Of a stretch of DNA of 64,000 nucleotides, positions 10,871 to 21,059 are shown piece by piece. The DNA is taken from the NCBI GenBank assembly GCA_016342355.1, contig JAEINP010000019.1, positions 1 through 64,000 on the forward strand, written 5' to 3'. The position numbers and the translations under genes were made by a program. The stretch comes from Desulfatibacillum sp. (lineage in GTDB: Bacteria; Desulfobacterota; Desulfobacteria; Desulfobacterales; Desulfatibacillaceae). The number at the start of each line of letters is the position of its first letter. The first letter of the stretch is position 1. Under the pieces are notes generated by a model that made no database searches, was not told the origin of the DNA, and saw nothing but the letters and a program-made list of their open reading frames with translations.

Positions 10871-11881
10871 ATGGCTCAAAGACCAATTTTTCCTACAGAT
10901 CAATTCGAGTGCTTCGATGCCTCCGGAAAACCGGCGCCTTGCCATGGCGCGCAGGACCCTGTCGGTGCGGGCCGACCCTGGCCGTCTCCCCGGTTTCATG
11001 AGGAAGGCCAGACGGTTATTGATAATCTCACGGGATTGGTATGGACACAGGACGCCGCGGTTAGCATGTTCCCCATGATCTGGGCCGATGCCTTTGATCT
11101 GGTGGCCCGCATGAACAAGATACAGGCTTACGGATACTCGGATTGGCGGGTCCCCAACCGCAGGGAGTTGTTCAGCTTGATCAGCCATGTGAGGAGCAAT
11201 CCGGCCCTGCCCCAGGGGCATCCTTTTGTGAATACCTTGTCCGGTTGGTACTGGACCTCCACCACCCTGACCCGGATGGCCGTGGAGGCTTGGCAGGTGA
11301 ACCTGGGCAGCGGGCGTGTGAGCACGGGAATGAAGCATGAAATGGCCATGATCTGGCCTGCGAGGGGCGGCGACAAGGGGGAAGTGCGGCTGGCATGGAC
11401 AGGACAGAAGTTGTGCTACAGCCTTGGGGGCAATTTGCTCCCATGCCATGAATGCGGTCAGGACGGGGAATTGCGGACGGGTGCGCCCTGGCCTTCCCCC
11501 CGTTTTACCCAGTCCGGCCAGGCAGTGTTGGATCTGCTGACCGGTCTGTCCTGGACTCACAACGCCAATTGCGGCCCTGGACTGGTCGTTTGGGAAGAGG
11601 CCTTTGAAGCTGTGGCCCGCCTCAACACAAGCCGGTTGGATGGACATAATGATTGGCGCGTTCCCACCATTCGGGAACTGGAAAGCATAACCGATATGGG
11701 CGCCCATACTCCGGCCTTGGTTCAGGGGCGGCCCTATGTGAATCTTCGGGATTATTACTGGTCCTCTTCAACCGTAGCCCACGCTATGGACCATGCATGG
11801 GTCCTGGAAACCGGTGACGGCAGAATCACCCACCGGAAAAAACAGGAAAAGGCCTGCCATGTATGGGCAGTCAGGGCCTGA
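10871..11881 (+). CDS. Tandemly duplicated DUF1566 (Lcl C-terminal) domain protein
   Basis: 336 residues made of two homologous halves of about 165. Each has RPWPSPRF or APWPSPRF, LLTGLxWT, EAFxxVARxN, DWRVPxxRELxSI, a YYWSSST/WYWTSTT motif and a closing W-A-R. These are the marks of DUF1566 (PF07603), a C-type-lectin-like fold usually found in secreted or surface proteins. No signal peptide is present here, which is unusual. The start ATG is forced by an in-frame stop 7 nt upstream and appears leaderless (see promoter). It precedes a geranylgeranyl-reductase-like gene by 29 nt. DUF1566 domains can be targets of diversity-generating retroelements, but no reverse transcriptase is in the window. 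Confidence 0.88.
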   Translation: MAQRPIFPTDQFECFDASGKPAPCHGAQDPVGAGRPWPSPRFHEEGQTVIDNLTGLVWTQDAAVSMFPMIWADAFDLVARMNKIQAYGYSDWRVPNRRELFSLISHVRSNPALPQGHPFVNTLSGWYWTSTTLTRMAVEAWQVNLGSGRVSTGMKHEMAMIWPARGGDKGEVRLAWTGQKLCYSLGGNLLPCHECGQDGELRTGAPWPSPRFTQSGQAVLDLLTGLSWTHNANCGPGLVVWEEAFEAVARLNTSRLDGHNDWRVPTIRELESITDMGAHTPALVQGRPYVNLRDYYWSSSTVAHAMDHAWVLETGDGRITHRKKQEKACHVWAVRA

Positions 11882-13963: not shown

Positions 13964-14491
13964 TTAGGGTGACCCGTCTCCGGCAAATATTTCAGGTGCA
14001 ATTCCCCTCGCCTGCTGTTCCAGGACCTTGAGGGCCATGGTGATAAGTTCTTCCGGGCTGTCCAGACCATAAACGGTCTGGAGTTTGGGCAACAGGTCCA
14101 GGACATCCTTTCCCAAACCCAGTGTCACATAACGCCCTCCGGCTTCCTCCAATCTTTTCGCATTTTGTTCGATGAGGAAGATTCGGGCCTTCTCCCTGAT
14201 GAGATTGACGGAGAGTTTTAAGGGCTTCAAGGGAGGGAGGGGCTGCCTGTTGGGGGGCAGTTTCTTTACGAAGGCCCTAACAATTTGGGGAGGAGGCAGT
14301 TCTCCGAATTCCTCCTGGAAGGCGTTCTCCAATTTGGGCAGGGAAGGGTCGATGCCAGTGAGAACGGTTTTGGCCAAAGCGATCTTCATGCCGCCATAGG
14401 GGTCGGTTTTCAGGCTCTCTCTTAGCTTTCTTTCGCGTGTGGAAGCCTTTTTGTTCAATCCGGGTCTCCTGTGTTTCGGCGAGGCGGCCAT
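13964..14491 (-). CDS. Hypothetical protein (175 aa)
   Basis: Basic N-terminal third (PKHRRPGLNKKASTRERKLRESLK), a proline-rich centre (LPPNRQPLPPLKPLKLS) and a helical C-terminal part (SPEELITMALKVLEQQARG) reminiscent of small DNA-binding ribbon-helix-helix tails. No family is recognised and no signal peptide or TM is seen. The ribosome site is weak (CAGGGA 1-2 nt before ATG), so the start is uncertain; an internal Met at residue 35 is an alternative. The 140 nt between this gene and the outer-membrane protein gene hold nothing recognised. Confidence 0.5.
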   Translation of the reverse strand: MAASPKHRRPGLNKKASTRERKLRESLKTDPYGGMKIALAKTVLTGIDPSLPKLENAFQEEFGELPPPQIVRAFVKKLPPNRQPLPPLKPLKLSVNLIREKARIFLIEQNAKRLEEAGGRYVTLGLGKDVLDLLPKLQTVYGLDSPEELITMALKVLEQQARGIAPEIFAGDGSP

Positions 14492-14894: not shown

Positions 14895-16874
14895 ATGGAC
14901 ACCCAGGATAAACTGGACGATCAATTGACCATGGTGGACGGCATGGGGCAAGGCGGGAACGAGCCCCGGGAGACAGGGGGCGCATTGGACGATGCCCCCA
15001 CCCTGGTCACCGAGCCTTCGCCGGACACCCCCGCAGGCCAGTCCCCCAGTGAACGTTTTGAAATTTTAGACGAACTGGGCCGGGGGGGCATGGGGGTGGT
15101 GTATAAGGCCAGGGACAAAAAATTGGGGAGAATCATCGCCCTTAAATCCCTCAAGCCCGAAAGCACGGCCTCCGGCAAGGCTGTGGAACGCTTTTGGCGA
15201 GAGGCCAAGGCCATTGCGACTCTTAGTCATTTCAATATTGTAGGTATTTATGATGTGTTGGAGCAGGGCCAGGCTTTGTGGATCGCCATGGAATATCTGC
15301 CCAACGGCAGCCTGAAGGACAAGGTGCGAAGGTCCGGCGCCCTGCCCGCCGGACAGGTTGCCAAAATCGGCCGCCAACTGGCGGACGCAGTAGACCACGC
15401 CCATTCCCGGGGTATCTATCACAGGGACATCAAGCCAGGCAATGTGCTGCTTACGGAACGGGACACTCCCAAGCTGGGGGATTTTGGCCTGGCCCAGGAA
15501 GTGAGTACGGCCGGGGACATGACTGTGCAAGGGGCCATGATGGGTACCATGTACTATGCCGCTCCCGAGCAAATGGCCAACGGCAGCAATGTGGATGCCC
15601 GAAGCGACATATATAGCCTGGGCGCGACCCTGTATATGCTGGCCACGGGCGAGGCGCCCCGGGCCATCCGCCCGGAACGCATTCCCCGGGAATTGCGGGC
15701 GATCATTAGCAAATGCCTGGAAGAACATCCTGATAAACGTTTTCAAAACGCTGCGGAACTTTCCAAGGCCCTTTCCACCGGAGATTTTGCCCAAGCGCCC
15801 AAAAAGGTGGGTCAGGCCTGCCCGGCCTGCGGCCATTTCAATCCTGAAACCCTGCGTTATTGCCAGAAATGCGGGGGCGGGCTGGCCGCCTTGTTTCGTA
15901 AATGCCCCAAGTGCCGTGCTGAAAATCATGTGAGCGTGGAGTTTTGCGGAAAATGCGGCGAAAACATCCCCGTAGCCCTACTGGCTCTCAAGGCCCGGAA
16001 GGCCACTGCGGACGGGAATCCCCAGGCTGCCGCAAAAACGTGGAAAACCATCCTGTCCAAAGACCCGGAACACACGGAAGCCAGGGCATGCCTGGTAAGG
16101 ATTGTGGAAAATAACCGGCGCATCAAGGAGTTGGCGGGGGAGGCGCGGGACGCCTATAAAAGGGGCGATAAAGAAAGCGCTTATAAATGCTTTTGCCGGA
16201 TCACGGAAATTGACCCGACCCTGGAGGAAGCCAGGACAAAGTGCGAATCCATGAAGCCGGGCTTGGTCCAGCAAAGGATGGCCCGGGGCCGTACTTTTTT
16301 TTCAGCCAAAAAATACGAACAGGCATACAGTCAACTGCAGGGTGTGCTTGACCTGGATGAATTCAACCGGGAAGCCCTGGACATGCTTACCACCGTCTCC
16401 CGTTTTTACAGGCCCTCGGCGCCCAAAGTGCCCAAGGCAACAGCCCATGTGTCCATGGGCCTGTCCGGGTCCCGCCGGGTGAATAAAAAGTTGATGATGA
16501 TCATTGCGGGCGGAATTGTCGTGATTTTTTTCCTTATCCTCATGAGTTTTTCCGGCAGCGGCGACAGCTCCGTGCTGTTTGACAAGCAGGCGAAAAGCAC
16601 TGCCGCCCGGATTGCCCAATCCCTGAAAACCCTTGTCTCACTCCAGCCGGACAAACCGGTCACCTTGGGCGCAATTCAATCCACGGGTGTCCAGTGGGCG
16701 CCGGTTGTAAGCGTTTTGGTCAGCGATCCTGATCCGGCCCATCCCCGGGTTATGGTGGTTCATGCCTCGGGCGCGCATATGTATGTTGTGGACGGGGAAG
16801 GGGCAATCACCGAAAAACCTTATGAAAAGCCCACCCCGGACCAGGTTTCAGACCTGGGTGAAAAAAGTCCTTGA
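14895..16874 (+). CDS. Membrane-anchored serine/threonine protein kinase with paired zinc ribbons
   Basis: 659 residues. Kinase domain at about 55-295: glycine loop LGRGGMG (61-67), catalytic Lys84 (IALK), HRDIKPGN (Asp178), DFG (Asp196) and YAAPEQ, so it should be active and of the bacterial PknB-like type. Two zinc ribbons follow (Cys309/312/323/326 and Cys337/340/351/354), then a TPR-like helical region (about 360-500), one transmembrane helix (about 533-552, LMMIIAGGIVVIFFLILM) and a roughly 100-residue outer part. The kinase is thus cytoplasmic and the C terminus extracytoplasmic. The N-terminal 50 residues are acidic and Thr/Ser-rich, a likely autophosphorylation tail. GGAGAG precedes the ATG. 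First gene of a three-gene cassette. Confidence 0.92.
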   Translation: MDTQDKLDDQLTMVDGMGQGGNEPRETGGALDDAPTLVTEPSPDTPAGQSPSERFEILDELGRGGMGVVYKARDKKLGRIIALKSLKPESTASGKAVERFWREAKAIATLSHFNIVGIYDVLEQGQALWIAMEYLPNGSLKDKVRRSGALPAGQVAKIGRQLADAVDHAHSRGIYHRDIKPGNVLLTERDTPKLGDFGLAQEVSTAGDMTVQGAMMGTMYYAAPEQMANGSNVDARSDIYSLGATLYMLATGEAPRAIRPERIPRELRAIISKCLEEHPDKRFQNAAELSKALSTGDFAQAPKKVGQACPACGHFNPETLRYCQKCGGGLAALFRKCPKCRAENHVSVEFCGKCGENIPVALLALKARKATADGNPQAAAKTWKTILSKDPEHTEARACLVRIVENNRRIKELAGEARDAYKRGDKESAYKCFCRITEIDPTLEEARTKCESMKPGLVQQRMARGRTFFSAKKYEQAYSQLQGVLDLDEFNREALDMLTTVSRFYRPSAPKVPKATAHVSMGLSGSRRVNKKLMMIIAGGIVVIFFLILMSFSGSGDSSVLFDKQAKSTAARIAQSLKTLVSLQPDKPVTLGAIQSTGVQWAPVVSVLVSDPDPAHPRVMVVHASGAHMYVVDGEGAITEKPYEKPTPDQVSDLGEKSP

Positions 16875-16901
16875 TTGTAACTCAAAAACCAGGAGTCCGA
16901 T

Positions 16902-18548
16902 ATGCAACAAAATCCGGGAGCATGGCGTTTGGATGACGCTACTGTGGCGCGCGTCCTTGGCCGCGAAGACCTGGCCAGCCATTGGATCTACGGCAGGCAG
17001 ATGTCTGTTCATCCCGGCGAGGCCGCCCTGTGGATGAAGGATGGCAAAGTGGTAAAGGTTGTCACCGAGGGGGATAAAATGGTGTCCGGGGTGGTGGACC
17101 GCCTCAAGGGCATTTTTTTTGCCGGGGGCGTTCTCGCAGTTATTATGATGGATGTGAACGATATCACCCTTGAGTTTCGGATCGGAGTGGACAAGGAATC
17201 TGTTTTCGCCAATGACCCGGACTTTTACGGCAAACTCCTTGAGGCCTACGGACACAACCAGGAAAAAAACGAAGCCGTTTCCACCCTGGTTGACCAATAT
17301 TCCCAAAATCTGGACACGGAATTGCAACAGCGCAAGGCAATCCTTACCAAAGACCGGGAAAGCGTGGCATTTGATGTGCGCCTGACTTTTGGTCTTTTGC
17401 CTGAAAAAGGGGCGGATCTGTTCAAACTTTTTGGTGCAAAGACCGTTATTCAGCGCTTTTTCATAGAAAATCTGACCCGGCAACGGTTGGAAAACGCCGT
17501 GTTTGTTCCGGCCCTGGCAGTCCATACCGGAGCGGAGCTGCGTCAAAACATGGACATTCTGGCGGAAATCAACAAGACCGCCCGCACAAACCTGGAAGCA
17601 TGGCTGTATGATCAAGGCATAGGCCTCAGGCGTCTGGCTATCAATCCCGCACTCACGGGAGACGAGCGTAAGGCTATAATTTTAAAAGAAAAAAAATCCC
17701 TGGAGTCCGCTGCCACAGACCGCCATCACCACGACCTGGAAGAACTCCAGCGCGAGTACGAACGCCTTATCATGCGGGAGCAACTGGCGGCCCAGGTTAC
17801 CCAGGTCAAAGGGGATACGGACAAGGAGAAACAGAAAATCCTCCACGCCACATTTTTGGCGGACCAGGAAAAAAAGCTCTCCGCGGCCCAGGTGGCTGAC
17901 AAAATCGAGCGCATTCGCCTATCCACCAAAATGGAAGCGCATAAAAAGCTAAAGGAATTGGCTGTTCTTGGCGTTAAGAAAAAGTGGGAACTGGAAAAGG
18001 AACGGATGGCTGCCGAGGCTGAAGTGGAAATGGACAAAATGCGCGTCCTGGCCGAGGAGTACCGAAAAAACAAAGAGTTGAAGGCCAATCAAAAACTCAG
18101 GGAGCTGGAAATGCGCCAGGTTGAGGCCAGACAGGAACGGGAGCATGTGGAACGGCTTCTGGAAATGGGCGCCCGGGAAGGGGCTCTGACCGACGGCGTA
18201 ATCCAGGAGGCCCTTCGCCAGCAAAGTGTGCGGAAGGCCCTGGACCAGGGTGAGAATGTGGGAAGAGCCTTTGGAGAGGCTGAAGGAAAAAGGCTGGCAA
18301 GCAAAGAACTTCCGTCCCTGCCGGGCCAGCCTTCCATTTCCATCACGGGCCAGGGACCCATGATCGTGGAAACCGGCCTCCACAAAAAAGAAGCTGCTGC
18401 GGGAAAGCCGTCTCTCCCCGGACCAGCTCCGTCCTTGCCGTCTCCCAAAGACGACAACAACATAGTCACGGTGTGCCCCCAATGCGGAGAAGTTGTCCCG
18501 GAAGGTTCGGCCTTTTGCGGGGTTTGCGGAAATAGGTTGGGTGAATAG
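16902..18548 (+). CDS. SPFH/band-7-like protein with long coiled coil and C-terminal zinc ribbon
   Basis: 548 residues. Residues about 30-260 resemble an SPFH (stomatin/prohibitin) domain: the entry segment MSVHPGEAALWMKDGKVVKVVTEGD matches the family start, followed by mixed beta strands and the AINPALTGDER turn. Residues about 260-430 are a heptad-rich Lys/Glu coiled coil. A Pro/Gly linker contains ISITGQGPMIVE (residues 479-490). A single zinc ribbon closes the chain (Cys525/528/539/542). No strong TM is present; a hydrophobic stretch IFFAGGVLAVIMM (about 71-83) could touch the membrane. SPFH proteins oligomerise into scaffolds, so this may organise the two flanking kinases (inference). 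AGGAG lies 6 nt before the ATG; 27 nt after the first kinase. Confidence 0.75.
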   Translation: MQQNPGAWRLDDATVARVLGREDLASHWIYGRQMSVHPGEAALWMKDGKVVKVVTEGDKMVSGVVDRLKGIFFAGGVLAVIMMDVNDITLEFRIGVDKESVFANDPDFYGKLLEAYGHNQEKNEAVSTLVDQYSQNLDTELQQRKAILTKDRESVAFDVRLTFGLLPEKGADLFKLFGAKTVIQRFFIENLTRQRLENAVFVPALAVHTGAELRQNMDILAEINKTARTNLEAWLYDQGIGLRRLAINPALTGDERKAIILKEKKSLESAATDRHHHDLEELQREYERLIMREQLAAQVTQVKGDTDKEKQKILHATFLADQEKKLSAAQVADKIERIRLSTKMEAHKKLKELAVLGVKKKWELEKERMAAEAEVEMDKMRVLAEEYRKNKELKANQKLRELEMRQVEARQEREHVERLLEMGAREGALTDGVIQEALRQQSVRKALDQGENVGRAFGEAEGKRLASKELPSLPGQPSISITGQGPMIVETGLHKKEAAAGKPSLPGPAPSLPSPKDDNNIVTVCPQCGEVVPEGSAFCGVCGNRLGE

Positions 18549-18557
18549 GAGTCGCAT

Positions 18558-21059
18558 ATGGCCGTTTTTTCCCCGGTGAGATTTGGAAAATATCTATTGT
18601 TGGACCCCATTGCCGTAGGCGGCATGGCGGAATTGTTCCGGGCCAAAATGACCGGGGATGCGGGTTTTGAAAAACTCATCGTCGTCAAAAAAATCCTGCC
18701 CCATCTTGTGAACGAAAAGGAGCTGGTGGAGTCTTTCATTTACGAGGCCCGTCTGGCAGCCCATCTTCAGCATGAAAACATTATCAGGACCTATGATTTC
18801 GGCCGCATGCAGGACGATTATTTCATCGCCATGGAGTACCTGTTCGGCAAAAACCTCCGCATGCTCATGGAACAAGCCAAAAGCCAGCATCTTTCCCTGG
18901 GCATGGGCAACATCCTCCATATCATGGCGTTGGTATGCGCCGGGCTGGATTATGCCCACAGCCTGAAGGACTTGGCAGGCAAGCCCCTGACCATTGTCCA
19001 CAGGGATATCAGCCCGCCCAATATTTTCATTACCTACGACGGCCATGTAAAAGTGGTGGATTTTGGCGTGGCAAAGGCCGCCAGCAAGAACACCACCACC
19101 CAGCATGGCGTGATCAAGGGCAAGGTGGCGTATATGTCGCCGGAACAGGCCAGCGGAAAGGAAATCGACCACCGGTCCGACATTTTCGCCGTGGGCTGCA
19201 TCCTTTATGAGATGGTGACGGGCAAAAGGATGTACGAAGGCGAAACCATGCAGGTTTTGGTAAAGGCCCAGGACGCGGACTTCGAGCCTGCGGAAAATTT
19301 GGCGAATATTTCCAGAAGTCTGGCCATTGTGCTTGCCAGGGCTTTGGCAAAAAACCCGGAAGAGCGGTACCAGACCTGCGGCGCCATGCTTGCCGGGTTG
19401 GAAGATGTAATGGTGGAGTTGTCCATCCGTCCCTCCCAAAGGGCGCTGGCAAGTTATATTACCGCCCTTTTTGATGATGAAATGCCAAAGGAAGAAGCCC
19501 TGATGAGGGAGGTGGCGGCGGCGCAGGTCCAGGAGGACCAATTAGCGCTTGTTCAGGCCGCCCCCCCTAAAAAAACGGTGGAACGAAAACCGCCTGTTGC
19601 TGCCAAGGCAGGCTCCACTTGCCCATCCTGCCGTAAACCGGTAGACCCGGACCTGGACTATTGCCCCTGGTGCGATGCGTCCCTGAAGGTGATGCAGCCC
19701 GCCATGGTGGCCTGCTCCGCCTGTGGCAAGCAGGTCCAGGCCCATTACAGGGTGTGCAACTATTGCGGGGCGCGGATGCAGGACAGGACCCTGGCCTCTA
19801 CCTCTGCCGGGCTTCCGGTCCATGACGCCGCCAGTCCGGGCGCAACCGGGCTGCCCGTCATGATTTATTTCAATGCCGGAAAAATCATCAGCGAAAAAAC
19901 CATTGATTTTCTGGAGCTGGCTGTAGCCAACGTCGGATCCACCCCTGTGGATGGCTTTACGGTCACGATCCGGGGCACCCTCATAGCCCGTATCCTGGAG
20001 GAAAAACTGCCTTTCAGCCTGGACCCGGGCAGGCCCTATGCCCTTAACGTGCCGGGCTTTTTGCCCCGGTGCGCGGGCAAGGACTCCCTGCGCCTGACCG
20101 TGGAGGGCCGCGCCAAGGACGGGGAGCCTTTTTATCTTTTGGGCACAATTCCCGTGGAAGTGACCGGCAAGGAGGAGGTGGCCTCCAACGTCAACGTGAA
20201 TATTTCCGCCAAGGGTCCCCTTATTGTGGACATGGAGGACGCCATCCCCGGCCTGACCGGTAAAAGGAATCAGGATTCCGATCCGTCCATACCCCGGTGG
20301 ATTCCCCTGGAACTCCACCCTGATCTGGAAAAACAGGAAAGAGCCAGCCGGAAATTTCCGCCAGCCTGCGTTTCGGCCGATACCTGCACCCTGGACGAGG
20401 CCGTGGCTTCGGCCCTTCATTCCCTGAGTCCTGAAACCGTACCCATGGCCCGGTTCTCGTGCCCGGACGGTACCGTCTACCATATTATTCCCGGCGCCTC
20501 CCTCTTGTTAGGGCGCAAACGCGACATCAACCATGTGCCTTCGTTTTTGTTTCCCGAGGAAGCTCACGAAGGGGAAAACGTCAAGGTCAGCCGGACCCAT
20601 TGCAGGATATTCATTCGCAAGAATCGGGTGTACATCCGGGATACCAGCTCCAACGGAACCTTTTTGGGCAAGGAACGCCTTCCCTCCAAGGAGGATGTGA
20701 TGCTGGGCACGGGCCAACAGGTGGTCATAGGCGGGGTTCTGGAAATGTGGGCCGATATTTTCACCAACGGCCAGACCATCATCGCCGTGCGTCTGAAACG
20801 CCAAAACAACAAGACCAACGAGCGCTATATCCTGGCTCATGGCCCGGCGCCCCTTGGCCCGGGGGACAGCAACCCCATACAGGTTGCCGGGGCGCCCAGT
20901 TTTTTGGGGGCCATCTATTACAATCCCGTGGCGGACAAATGGGTGTTTAGAGCCCTGGAAGGTTTTTCCAACAAGGGCCGGGATATGATCCTGCCCCCGG
21001 AAAAGGAACTGACCTTTGGCAAGGCCAAATGCCGGTTTGAAATCGTGCAGCCGGAATAG
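18558..21059 (+). CDS. Serine/threonine protein kinase with two zinc ribbons and FHA domain
   Basis: 833 residues. Kinase domain about 8-290: glycine loop region PIAVGGMAELFRAK, Lys44, HRDISPPN (Asp150), DFG (Asp168) and MSPEQ, with the HRDISPxN variant common in myxobacterial-type kinases. Two zinc ribbons: Cys355/358/369/372 and Cys386/389/400/403. A beta-rich region (about 430-560) carries NISAKGPLIVD, closely matching a segment in the upstream SPFH protein. An FHA phosphothreonine-binding domain spans about 640-740 (LLGRKRDIN, SRTHCRIF, DTSSNGTFLG). A further beta domain ends the chain. No TM is seen: cytoplasmic. FHA would let it dock on threonines phosphorylated by either kinase. GGAG lies 6 nt before the ATG and 10 nt after the SPFH stop. 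Confidence 0.92.
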   Translation: MAVFSPVRFGKYLLLDPIAVGGMAELFRAKMTGDAGFEKLIVVKKILPHLVNEKELVESFIYEARLAAHLQHENIIRTYDFGRMQDDYFIAMEYLFGKNLRMLMEQAKSQHLSLGMGNILHIMALVCAGLDYAHSLKDLAGKPLTIVHRDISPPNIFITYDGHVKVVDFGVAKAASKNTTTQHGVIKGKVAYMSPEQASGKEIDHRSDIFAVGCILYEMVTGKRMYEGETMQVLVKAQDADFEPAENLANISRSLAIVLARALAKNPEERYQTCGAMLAGLEDVMVELSIRPSQRALASYITALFDDEMPKEEALMREVAAAQVQEDQLALVQAAPPKKTVERKPPVAAKAGSTCPSCRKPVDPDLDYCPWCDASLKVMQPAMVACSACGKQVQAHYRVCNYCGARMQDRTLASTSAGLPVHDAASPGATGLPVMIYFNAGKIISEKTIDFLELAVANVGSTPVDGFTVTIRGTLIARILEEKLPFSLDPGRPYALNVPGFLPRCAGKDSLRLTVEGRAKDGEPFYLLGTIPVEVTGKEEVASNVNVNISAKGPLIVDMEDAIPGLTGKRNQDSDPSIPRWIPLELHPDLEKQERASRKFPPACVSADTCTLDEAVASALHSLSPETVPMARFSCPDGTVYHIIPGASLLLGRKRDINHVPSFLFPEEAHEGENVKVSRTHCRIFIRKNRVYIRDTSSNGTFLGKERLPSKEDVMLGTGQQVVIGGVLEMWADIFTNGQTIIAVRLKRQNNKTNERYILAHGPAPLGPGDSNPIQVAGAPSFLGAIYYNPVADKWVFRALEGFSNKGRDMILPPEKELTFGKAKCRFEIVQPE

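Follow-up and report, generated by a model that had tools for sequence, protein, structure and literature searches.

Hanks-type Ser/Thr kinases of bacteria are usually studied singly and few of them have known inputs; kinases of the PknB/GarA type have FHA-domain partners, and PknB itself carries PASTA repeats. Here we describe a related locus in the window, that is, the whole stretch of 64,000 nucleotides (nt) which was analysed (Desulfatibacillum sp., assembly GCA_016342355.1, contig JAEINP010000019.1, positions 1 to 64,000; the genome comprises 5.26 Mb in 142 contigs). The locus consists of three consecutive genes (Table 1): K1, encoding a membrane kinase, S, encoding a probable SPFH-fold protein, and K2, encoding a second kinase. 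Both kinases share the catalytic motifs of the PknB/GarA type and the FHA domain of K2 has its phosphothreonine-binding motifs; here, however, the FHA domain is fused to the second kinase, and K1 carries a pilin-like outer domain in place of PASTA repeats. We read K1 and K2 as a signalling unit of the cell envelope built from two Hanks-type kinases, to which an SPFH protein was added in one lineage, and assign this reading a probability of about 0.4.

Three further groups of described systems invite comparison. According to excerpts of the original report, the SPFH protein YdjI needs the membrane partners YdjG and YdjH, encoded in its own operon (PMC8581546). S resembles this YdjI/COG4260 type as an SPFH protein with a C-terminal zinc ribbon and by a short N-terminal likeness; it differs by its coiled coil, which is about 200 residues long, by the lack of a Band_7_1 match, by one ribbon versus three in the window genome's own Band_7_1 protein, and by its neighbours, which are K1 and K2 and not the PspA gene that lies beside the SPFH gene in the PspA-YdjGHI arrangement. 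Band_7_1 proteins are widespread, with members in 137 of 241 genomes of the class, and at 34 loci, taken from more than 140 matches, neither a K1/K2-like kinase nor an FHA domain was found (E <= 0.001) in the flanks of the Band_7_1 gene, which were covered to at most about 1.5 kb per side; the same neighbour test, applied to the window as a positive control, recovers the K1/K2 kinases and the FHA domain. Zinc ribbons were present in 10 of the 12 Band_7_1 frames recovered among these loci, and none of the three scanned genes surrounding the Band_7_1 gene of the window genome encodes a kinase. As far as the cited portions of a study on archaeal ESCRT systems go, an SPFH-coiled coil-zinc ribbon protein occurs in Meth_adaptin loci, and kinases and FHA proteins occur in the main and Halo_FHA loci, so that both sets belong to separate locus types, beside ESCRT proteins (PMC10936438); no ESCRT protein is present among the Pfam-scanned neighbours of K1-S-K2. 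The actinobacterial GAP1-N2 systems, as outlined in part of their description, include kinase-zinc ribbon-beta-rich proteins (PMC7159879), whereas no GTPase, vWA or PP2C protein is encoded by the three genes studied here. Among the open-licence full texts listed on SPFH proteins with kinases, zinc ribbons or FHA domains, on YdjI, on flotillin-PrkC and on FHA kinases (10 of 139 papers for the last), no description of the composite was found, and a search of the same literature for pilin-like kinase sensors gave none either.

The evidence for a two-kinase core lies in the gene order across relatives. In the family sample (Desulfatibacillaceae according to the NCBI taxonomy, nine genomes including the window genome), a profile search recovered K1 orthologues in six: the window genome (G000), Desulfatibacillum alkenivorans (G001), a more distant metagenome-assembled genome (MAG) of another genus (G083), G022, G235 and G138; the tally of this profile over 291 genomes, 17, also counts pilin-only and TPR-only matches. 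A profile of the K2 FHA tail was matched in five of the 291 genomes (G000, G001, G022, G083 and G138), all belonging to this family, and in G235 the contig ends within the K2 kinase domain, beside K1. Both kinases co-occur in the same six of the nine family genomes, and in five of these six they are linked in the same order. The complete order K1-S-K2 is conserved in D. alkenivorans at 74-82% identity, and the K1-S pair in the MAG at 46-47%, there followed by a frame of 197 amino acids (aa) matching nothing and by rsmA (TIGR00755, 2.4e-69). K1 and K2 are adjacent in G022 (gap of 98 nt) and in G235; in G138 the part of K1 read about 250 nt upstream of K2 is its tail (hmmsearch E 8.9e-9), with the K1 body on another contig. 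S was detected in three of the nine family genomes (G000, G001, G083), each time directly after K1, and in Desulfatibacillum it sits between K1 and K2. A single-sequence search with S returned the same three genomes out of 291 of the class, a profile search of 395 phylum genomes only G000 and G001 besides zinc-ribbon pieces in 16 others, and a search of plasmids, phages and viral contigs no match, giving no sign of carriage by mobile elements. Because of this gene order across relatives, K1-K2 as the core, with S as at most a lineage-specific addition, is supported.

The initial annotation of this locus, made from the nucleotide sequence, had proposed that all three proteins form one assembly. 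A fixed three-gene assembly is rejected, as K1 and K2 exist without S between them in G022, G235 and G138, and K2 of the MAG lies elsewhere. The linkage itself stood: the homologues might have been usually unlinked, and they are not (K1-K2 linked in five of six genomes, K1-S in three of three). Zinc ribbons in every member, as had been claimed, hold for the S-bearing lineage and not for K2 of G022 and G138. Three intact genes on the same strand were confirmed by the open reading frames (ORFs) and by Pfam matches for kinases, ribbons and FHA; the spacing of 27 and 10 nt was correct for the first gap, the second measuring 9 nt. An AGGAG-type site is located shortly 5' of each start, and a scan for promoters and terminators gave nothing convincing at either end of the K1-S-K2 unit.

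K1 combines the lysine, HRD and DFG motifs of Hanks-type kinases (ALK, HRDIKPGN, DFG) with two zinc ribbons and the single strong membrane helix of the locus, as originally described; elsewhere, hydropathy peaks at 1.65 in a borderline window of S (residues 64-82) and at 1.76 in a window of K2 that lies within the kinase domain (residues 112-130). The positions of the CxxC motifs define five ribbons, distributed 2+1+2 over K1 (309/323/337/351), S (525/539) and K2 (355/369/386/400). The TPR-like region attributed to K1 could be retained with a qualification, the Pfam TPR match being under cut-off in K1 itself and over it in the G022 orthologue. Not mentioned before were the pilin-like outer domain and the N-terminal threonine motifs of K1, or the beta-rich segment and the invariant block of K2. 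Within the first approximately 50 residues, K1 has two D/E-D/E-x-x-T motifs, whose threonines T12 and T36 do not vary among five aligned orthologues; each of the five has both motifs, although the N-terminal tail otherwise differs among genera; the tail of the G138 K1 (134 residues, L102:2683-3084) contains six looser D-D/G/Q-x-x-T copies resembling LDDTxTxLxPG. Known kinase/FHA systems are the basis on which we infer that these acidic threonine motifs are sites of autophosphorylation and FHA docking.

Beyond the membrane helix, about 90 residues of K1 form an outer domain, whose structure model reached mean predicted local distance difference test (pLDDT) values of 89-94 in 10-residue blocks (model residues 41-120), falling to 72 at the domain end. 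In Foldseek, the top row was PilA4 (6.3e-4) and the next two were also pilins (0.075 and 0.2), and VIA likewise placed PilA4 first (Z 11.4), followed by eight rows of pilins (Z 8.1 to 5.7). A profile of the K1 tail retrieved, among nine extracted matches, six small proteins of other genomes with a GFTLIEL-type prepilin motif; Pfam N_methyl was confirmed in the single one scanned, and hhalign aligned the K1 tail with the six at E 3.2e-13. Pfam assigned no family to the tails of K1 and K2. K1 is like type IV pilins in the fold and the C-terminal sequence of its outer domain, and differs from them in that this domain is joined to a kinase and that no GFTLIEL-type cleavage and methylation motif precedes the helix and no N_methyl match is obtained; since the pilin fold is present but the prepilin motif absent, K1 is no pilin but a kinase that carries a pilin-like domain on its outer side. 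Further proteins that seem to be membrane-bound and lack a prepilin motif (L099, in G001:C40, L088 and L090) share this pilin-like C-terminal domain; in L099 a TM2 domain was also found, and a zinc-ribbon match below the threshold.

For K2, the description as a kinase with two ribbons and an FHA domain was corroborated. The Hanks-type motifs are present (VVKK, HRDISPPN, DFG), and the FHA domain scores 44.6 bits against a cut-off of 20.7, with GRK/GRN, SR.H and NGT intact in all five aligned K2 sequences. In the three S-bearing genomes, K2 carries two zinc ribbons, the beta-rich segment and the block NVNVNISAKGPLIVDMEDA (3/3), whereas in G022 and G138, two genomes with no detected S, K2 consists of kinase and FHA domain without ribbons, segment and block (0/2); G235 was left out of this count, its K2 being cut. 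At all 19 positions of the block, the MAG K2 agrees with that of the window, compared with a mean identity of 45% over 485 aligned positions. Among 116 genomes of the order, 22, with G000 and G001 counted, encode relatives of the K2 kinase domain at E <= 1e-60. Four such relatives were scanned; the fusion partner is a Ras-like GTPase domain in one of them and TPRs in two. In G082, a K2-type kinase fused to a Ras/Roc-like GTPase domain (L040:8040-9587, minus strand) is followed by GGDEF and hydrolase genes, and genes related to these also come after the kinase in G258 (L039). Small related proteins are encoded downstream of the K2-type kinases of L042, L046, L047, L048, L052 and L055; of the two scanned, L042 matched LysM over and L046 under the cut-off. 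Gene calling was unreliable in the neighbourhoods of L027 and L053 (long antisense ORFs, a missed kinase gene), so absences there are uninformative.

The assignment of S as an SPFH protein stood in part. Pfam Band_7 gave E 0.012 and 16.1 bits, below the cut-off of 23.6, and a whole-genome Band_7 search found weak matches at S and at its D. alkenivorans orthologue (0.003 and 0.004), so the call made originally fails by profile. Comparison of folds ranks SPFH proteins first: with an AlphaFold model built from three sequences (mean pLDDT 53.8), rows 1-32 in Foldseek consisted entirely of SPFH proteins and major vault proteins, with a best E of 7.7e-4 and one row at <=0.001, and VIA-align superposed model residues of about 79-249 on prohibitin PHB1/2 (Z 10.7, 2.4 Å over 101 residues), followed by stomatin (Z 9.5) and HflK/C (Z 9.0), with FliL chains next at 8.1-8.6. 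In hhalign, the SPFH part matched Band_7_1 at E 0.0031, stomatin-type proteins at 0.089 and unrelated controls at 0.22 and 0.13; full-length S matched Band_7_1 at 4.7e-7, a score to which the zinc ribbon may add, and stomatin types at 0.2. On this comparison of folds, an SPFH fold is probable for S; the model also predicts the coiled coil after this domain (helix 253-426). Searching the PDB sequences with S gave a best E of 0.096 and no SPFH protein, and NCBIfam yielded nothing useful. Judged by sequence, S is not a member of the Band_7_1 (YdjI-like) proteins, because the Band_7_1 profile fails to match it, neither at E <= 0.1 in Pfam nor at E <= 0.001 in the whole-genome search.

Taken as a signalling unit, the two kinases could operate as follows. 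K1, anchored in the inner membrane, would sense a periplasmic cue with its pilin-like outer domain, possibly pilin subunits residing in the membrane or strain on the envelope, and would autophosphorylate at the threonines of its acidic N-terminal motifs. The FHA domain of K2 would bind these phosphothreonines and bring K2 to the membrane, where it might be phosphorylated, allowing a relay between the kinases, or act on targets of its own. In the S-bearing lineage, S may assemble into a coiled-coil SPFH oligomer, which zinc ribbons, together with the invariant K2 block, would recruit to both kinases; the oligomer would cluster K1 and K2, by analogy with YdjI of Bacillus subtilis. A likeness between the S linker motif SISITGQGPMIVE and NVNVNISAKGPLIVDMEDA, which share a 'GP' motif, is suggestive and may serve as a lead only. 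Among the nine pairs formed by three S linkers and three insert-bearing K2, 26-243 of 500 shuffles reach the score, whereby two pairs, both with the MAG S, aligned stretches other than the 'GP' motif; on the DNA level, the 'GP' pattern gave five hits in S/K2 by construction and two others in 291 genomes, the reversed-pattern control six.

Several observations weigh against this reading. The correlation of S with the K2 insert may be one evolutionary event, the split between S-bearing and S-lacking sequences having an ultrafast bootstrap support of 95 in the K1 tree (six sequences) and 51 in that of K2. For the window pair, 41 of 500 shuffles reach the score of the 'GP' likeness, which is not clearly beyond chance, and the MAG S lacks the 'GP' pattern. 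The S model is poor, and because of the borderline hydrophobic stretch at residues 64-82 S may reach the membrane alone. In the MAG, K2 is not beside S; it lies on another contig with its start cut, so that its kinase domain is not visible. Two other genera of the family have K1 and K2 adjacent with no S, and the core thus does not require it; the absence of S from the remainder of G022, G235 and G138 is read from genomes with a completeness of 97, 83 and 86%, respectively. Part of the same evidence would suit a plain phospho-docking pair K1-K2, into which S was inserted by chance and is merely co-transcribed, the K2 insert being an unrelated acquisition of the same lineage: K1 and K2 lack an intervening S in all three S-lacking genomes mentioned, the presence of S and the insert could go back to a single branch, and the S/K2 motif likeness does not clearly exceed that of shuffled sequences. 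We nevertheless regard such an insertion as somewhat unlikely, as S directly follows K1 in another genus at only 46% identity and the K2 block is fully identical there, which suggests a kept partner. A new type of signalling complex in the envelope, in which a kinase sensing by a pilin-like domain phosphorylates its own threonine array, thereby recruiting an FHA kinase, and an SPFH oligomer organises both via a co-evolved K2 insert of zinc ribbons, beta-rich segment and 'GP' motif, appears unlikely; if true, an SPFH protein would here scaffold a kinase cascade in a bacterium.

Other explanations change the role of S or the nature of the signal. S could be the target and not the scaffold, being phosphorylated by K1 and read by the FHA domain of K2, whereby membrane organisation would be controlled. 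The gene order K1-S-K2 would fit this, as would the action of SPFH proteins in membrane dynamics and recruitment, as stated in excerpts of PMC8581546; the conserved threonine motifs, however, sit on K1, and genomes in which no S was detected also keep the FHA domain, whose main ligand can hardly be S there, so that we consider this quite unlikely. That the unit reports type IV pilus assembly or surface contact, the outer domain of K1 mixing with pilin subunits in the membrane, is suggested by the pilin-like domain and would be compatible with the two-kinase envelope unit, for which it would specify the signal; none of the five Pfam-scanned neighbouring genes is a pilus gene, however, and as the domain also exists in other membrane proteins such as the TM2 protein L099 it may be a general module, which makes this version very unlikely. 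A function as an anti-phage defence system seems extremely improbable. Both kinases match the PADLOC models PD-T4-6 and MADS6, but the best 25 matches per kinase are confined to the kinase domain and its edge, as expected of any Hanks-type kinase, and S has no PADLOC match at all; with no full-length match among these best 25 per kinase, and no partner proteins, the defence assignment was rejected.

Table 1 Features of the K1-S-K2 locus (positions in the window)
Feature	Position	Strand	Basis
K1, membrane Ser/Thr kinase, 659 aa	14895..16874	+	ORF, Pfam; orthologues in 6/9 family genomes, own included
K1 threonine motif 1, LDDQLTMVDG	14913..14942	+	T12, M13 invariant in 5 aligned orthologues
K1 threonine motif 2, LDDAPTLV	14985..15008	+	D32, A34, T36 invariant in 5 aligned orthologues
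K1 kinase domain, residues 55-257	15057..15665	+	Pfam Pkinase 4.3e-53
K1 double zinc ribbon	15819..15959	+	Pfam DZR 9.5e-9; eight Cys invariant in 5 orthologues
K1 TPR-like region	15984..16394	+	Under cut-off in K1; TPR_14 1.5e-7, over cut-off, in G022 orthologue
K1 transmembrane helix, residues 533-551	16491..16547	+	Mean hydropathy 2.83
K1 type IV pilin-like outer domain	16566..16826	+	Structure model, Foldseek, VIA, hhalign
S, SPFH-like protein of 548 aa with coiled coil and C-terminal zinc ribbon	16902..18548	+	
S N-terminal stretch, like the start of Band_7_1 (COG4260-type) proteins	16965..17075	+	hhalign E 0.0031 (SPFH part)
S probable SPFH domain, residues 84-251	17151..17654	+	VIA; low-confidence model
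S long coiled coil (predicted)	17658..18287	+	Model helices 253-426, 431-462
S linker motif SISITGQGPMIVE	18333..18371	+	Sequence; resembles K2 motif, not clearly beyond shuffles
S zinc ribbon	18474..18539	+	Pfam Zn_Ribbon_1 6.3e-6
K2, Ser/Thr kinase with FHA domain, 833 aa	18558..21059	+	ORF, Pfam
K2 kinase domain	18585..19418	+	Pfam Pkinase 2.4e-40
K2 double zinc ribbon, S-bearing genomes only	19620..19775	+	Pfam DZR 2.7e-9; absent from G022, G138 K2
K2 beta-rich segment, read as immunoglobulin-like	19851..20168	+	No Pfam family; strand content judged by eye
K2 invariant block NVNVNISAKGPLIVDMEDA	20187..20243	+	19/19 identical to MAG K2
K2 FHA domain	20553..20732	+	Pfam FHA 2e-11
K2 C-terminal conserved segment	20775..21056	+	No Pfam family; conserved in five aligned K2

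Around the locus, a protein of 175 aa without a Pfam match (13964-14491, minus strand) is encoded divergently upstream of K1 and shows 70% identity in D. alkenivorans, and a protein with two Lcl_C domain stretches is encoded further upstream (10871-11881, plus strand). In D. alkenivorans, a frame of 1010 codons (L005:10375-13407, minus strand) runs antisense to K1, S and the start of K2; it is fragmented in the window and probably an effect of codon bias.

We consider the family-restricted K1-K2 unit with its accessory SPFH protein to be real, as a variant within known kinase/FHA signalling. In it, a kinase whose outer domain is recognisably pilin-like comes together with a predicted docking site for the second kinase. 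The relatives with and without S moreover represent a natural comparison, by which the contribution of an SPFH scaffold to a pair of kinases becomes testable.

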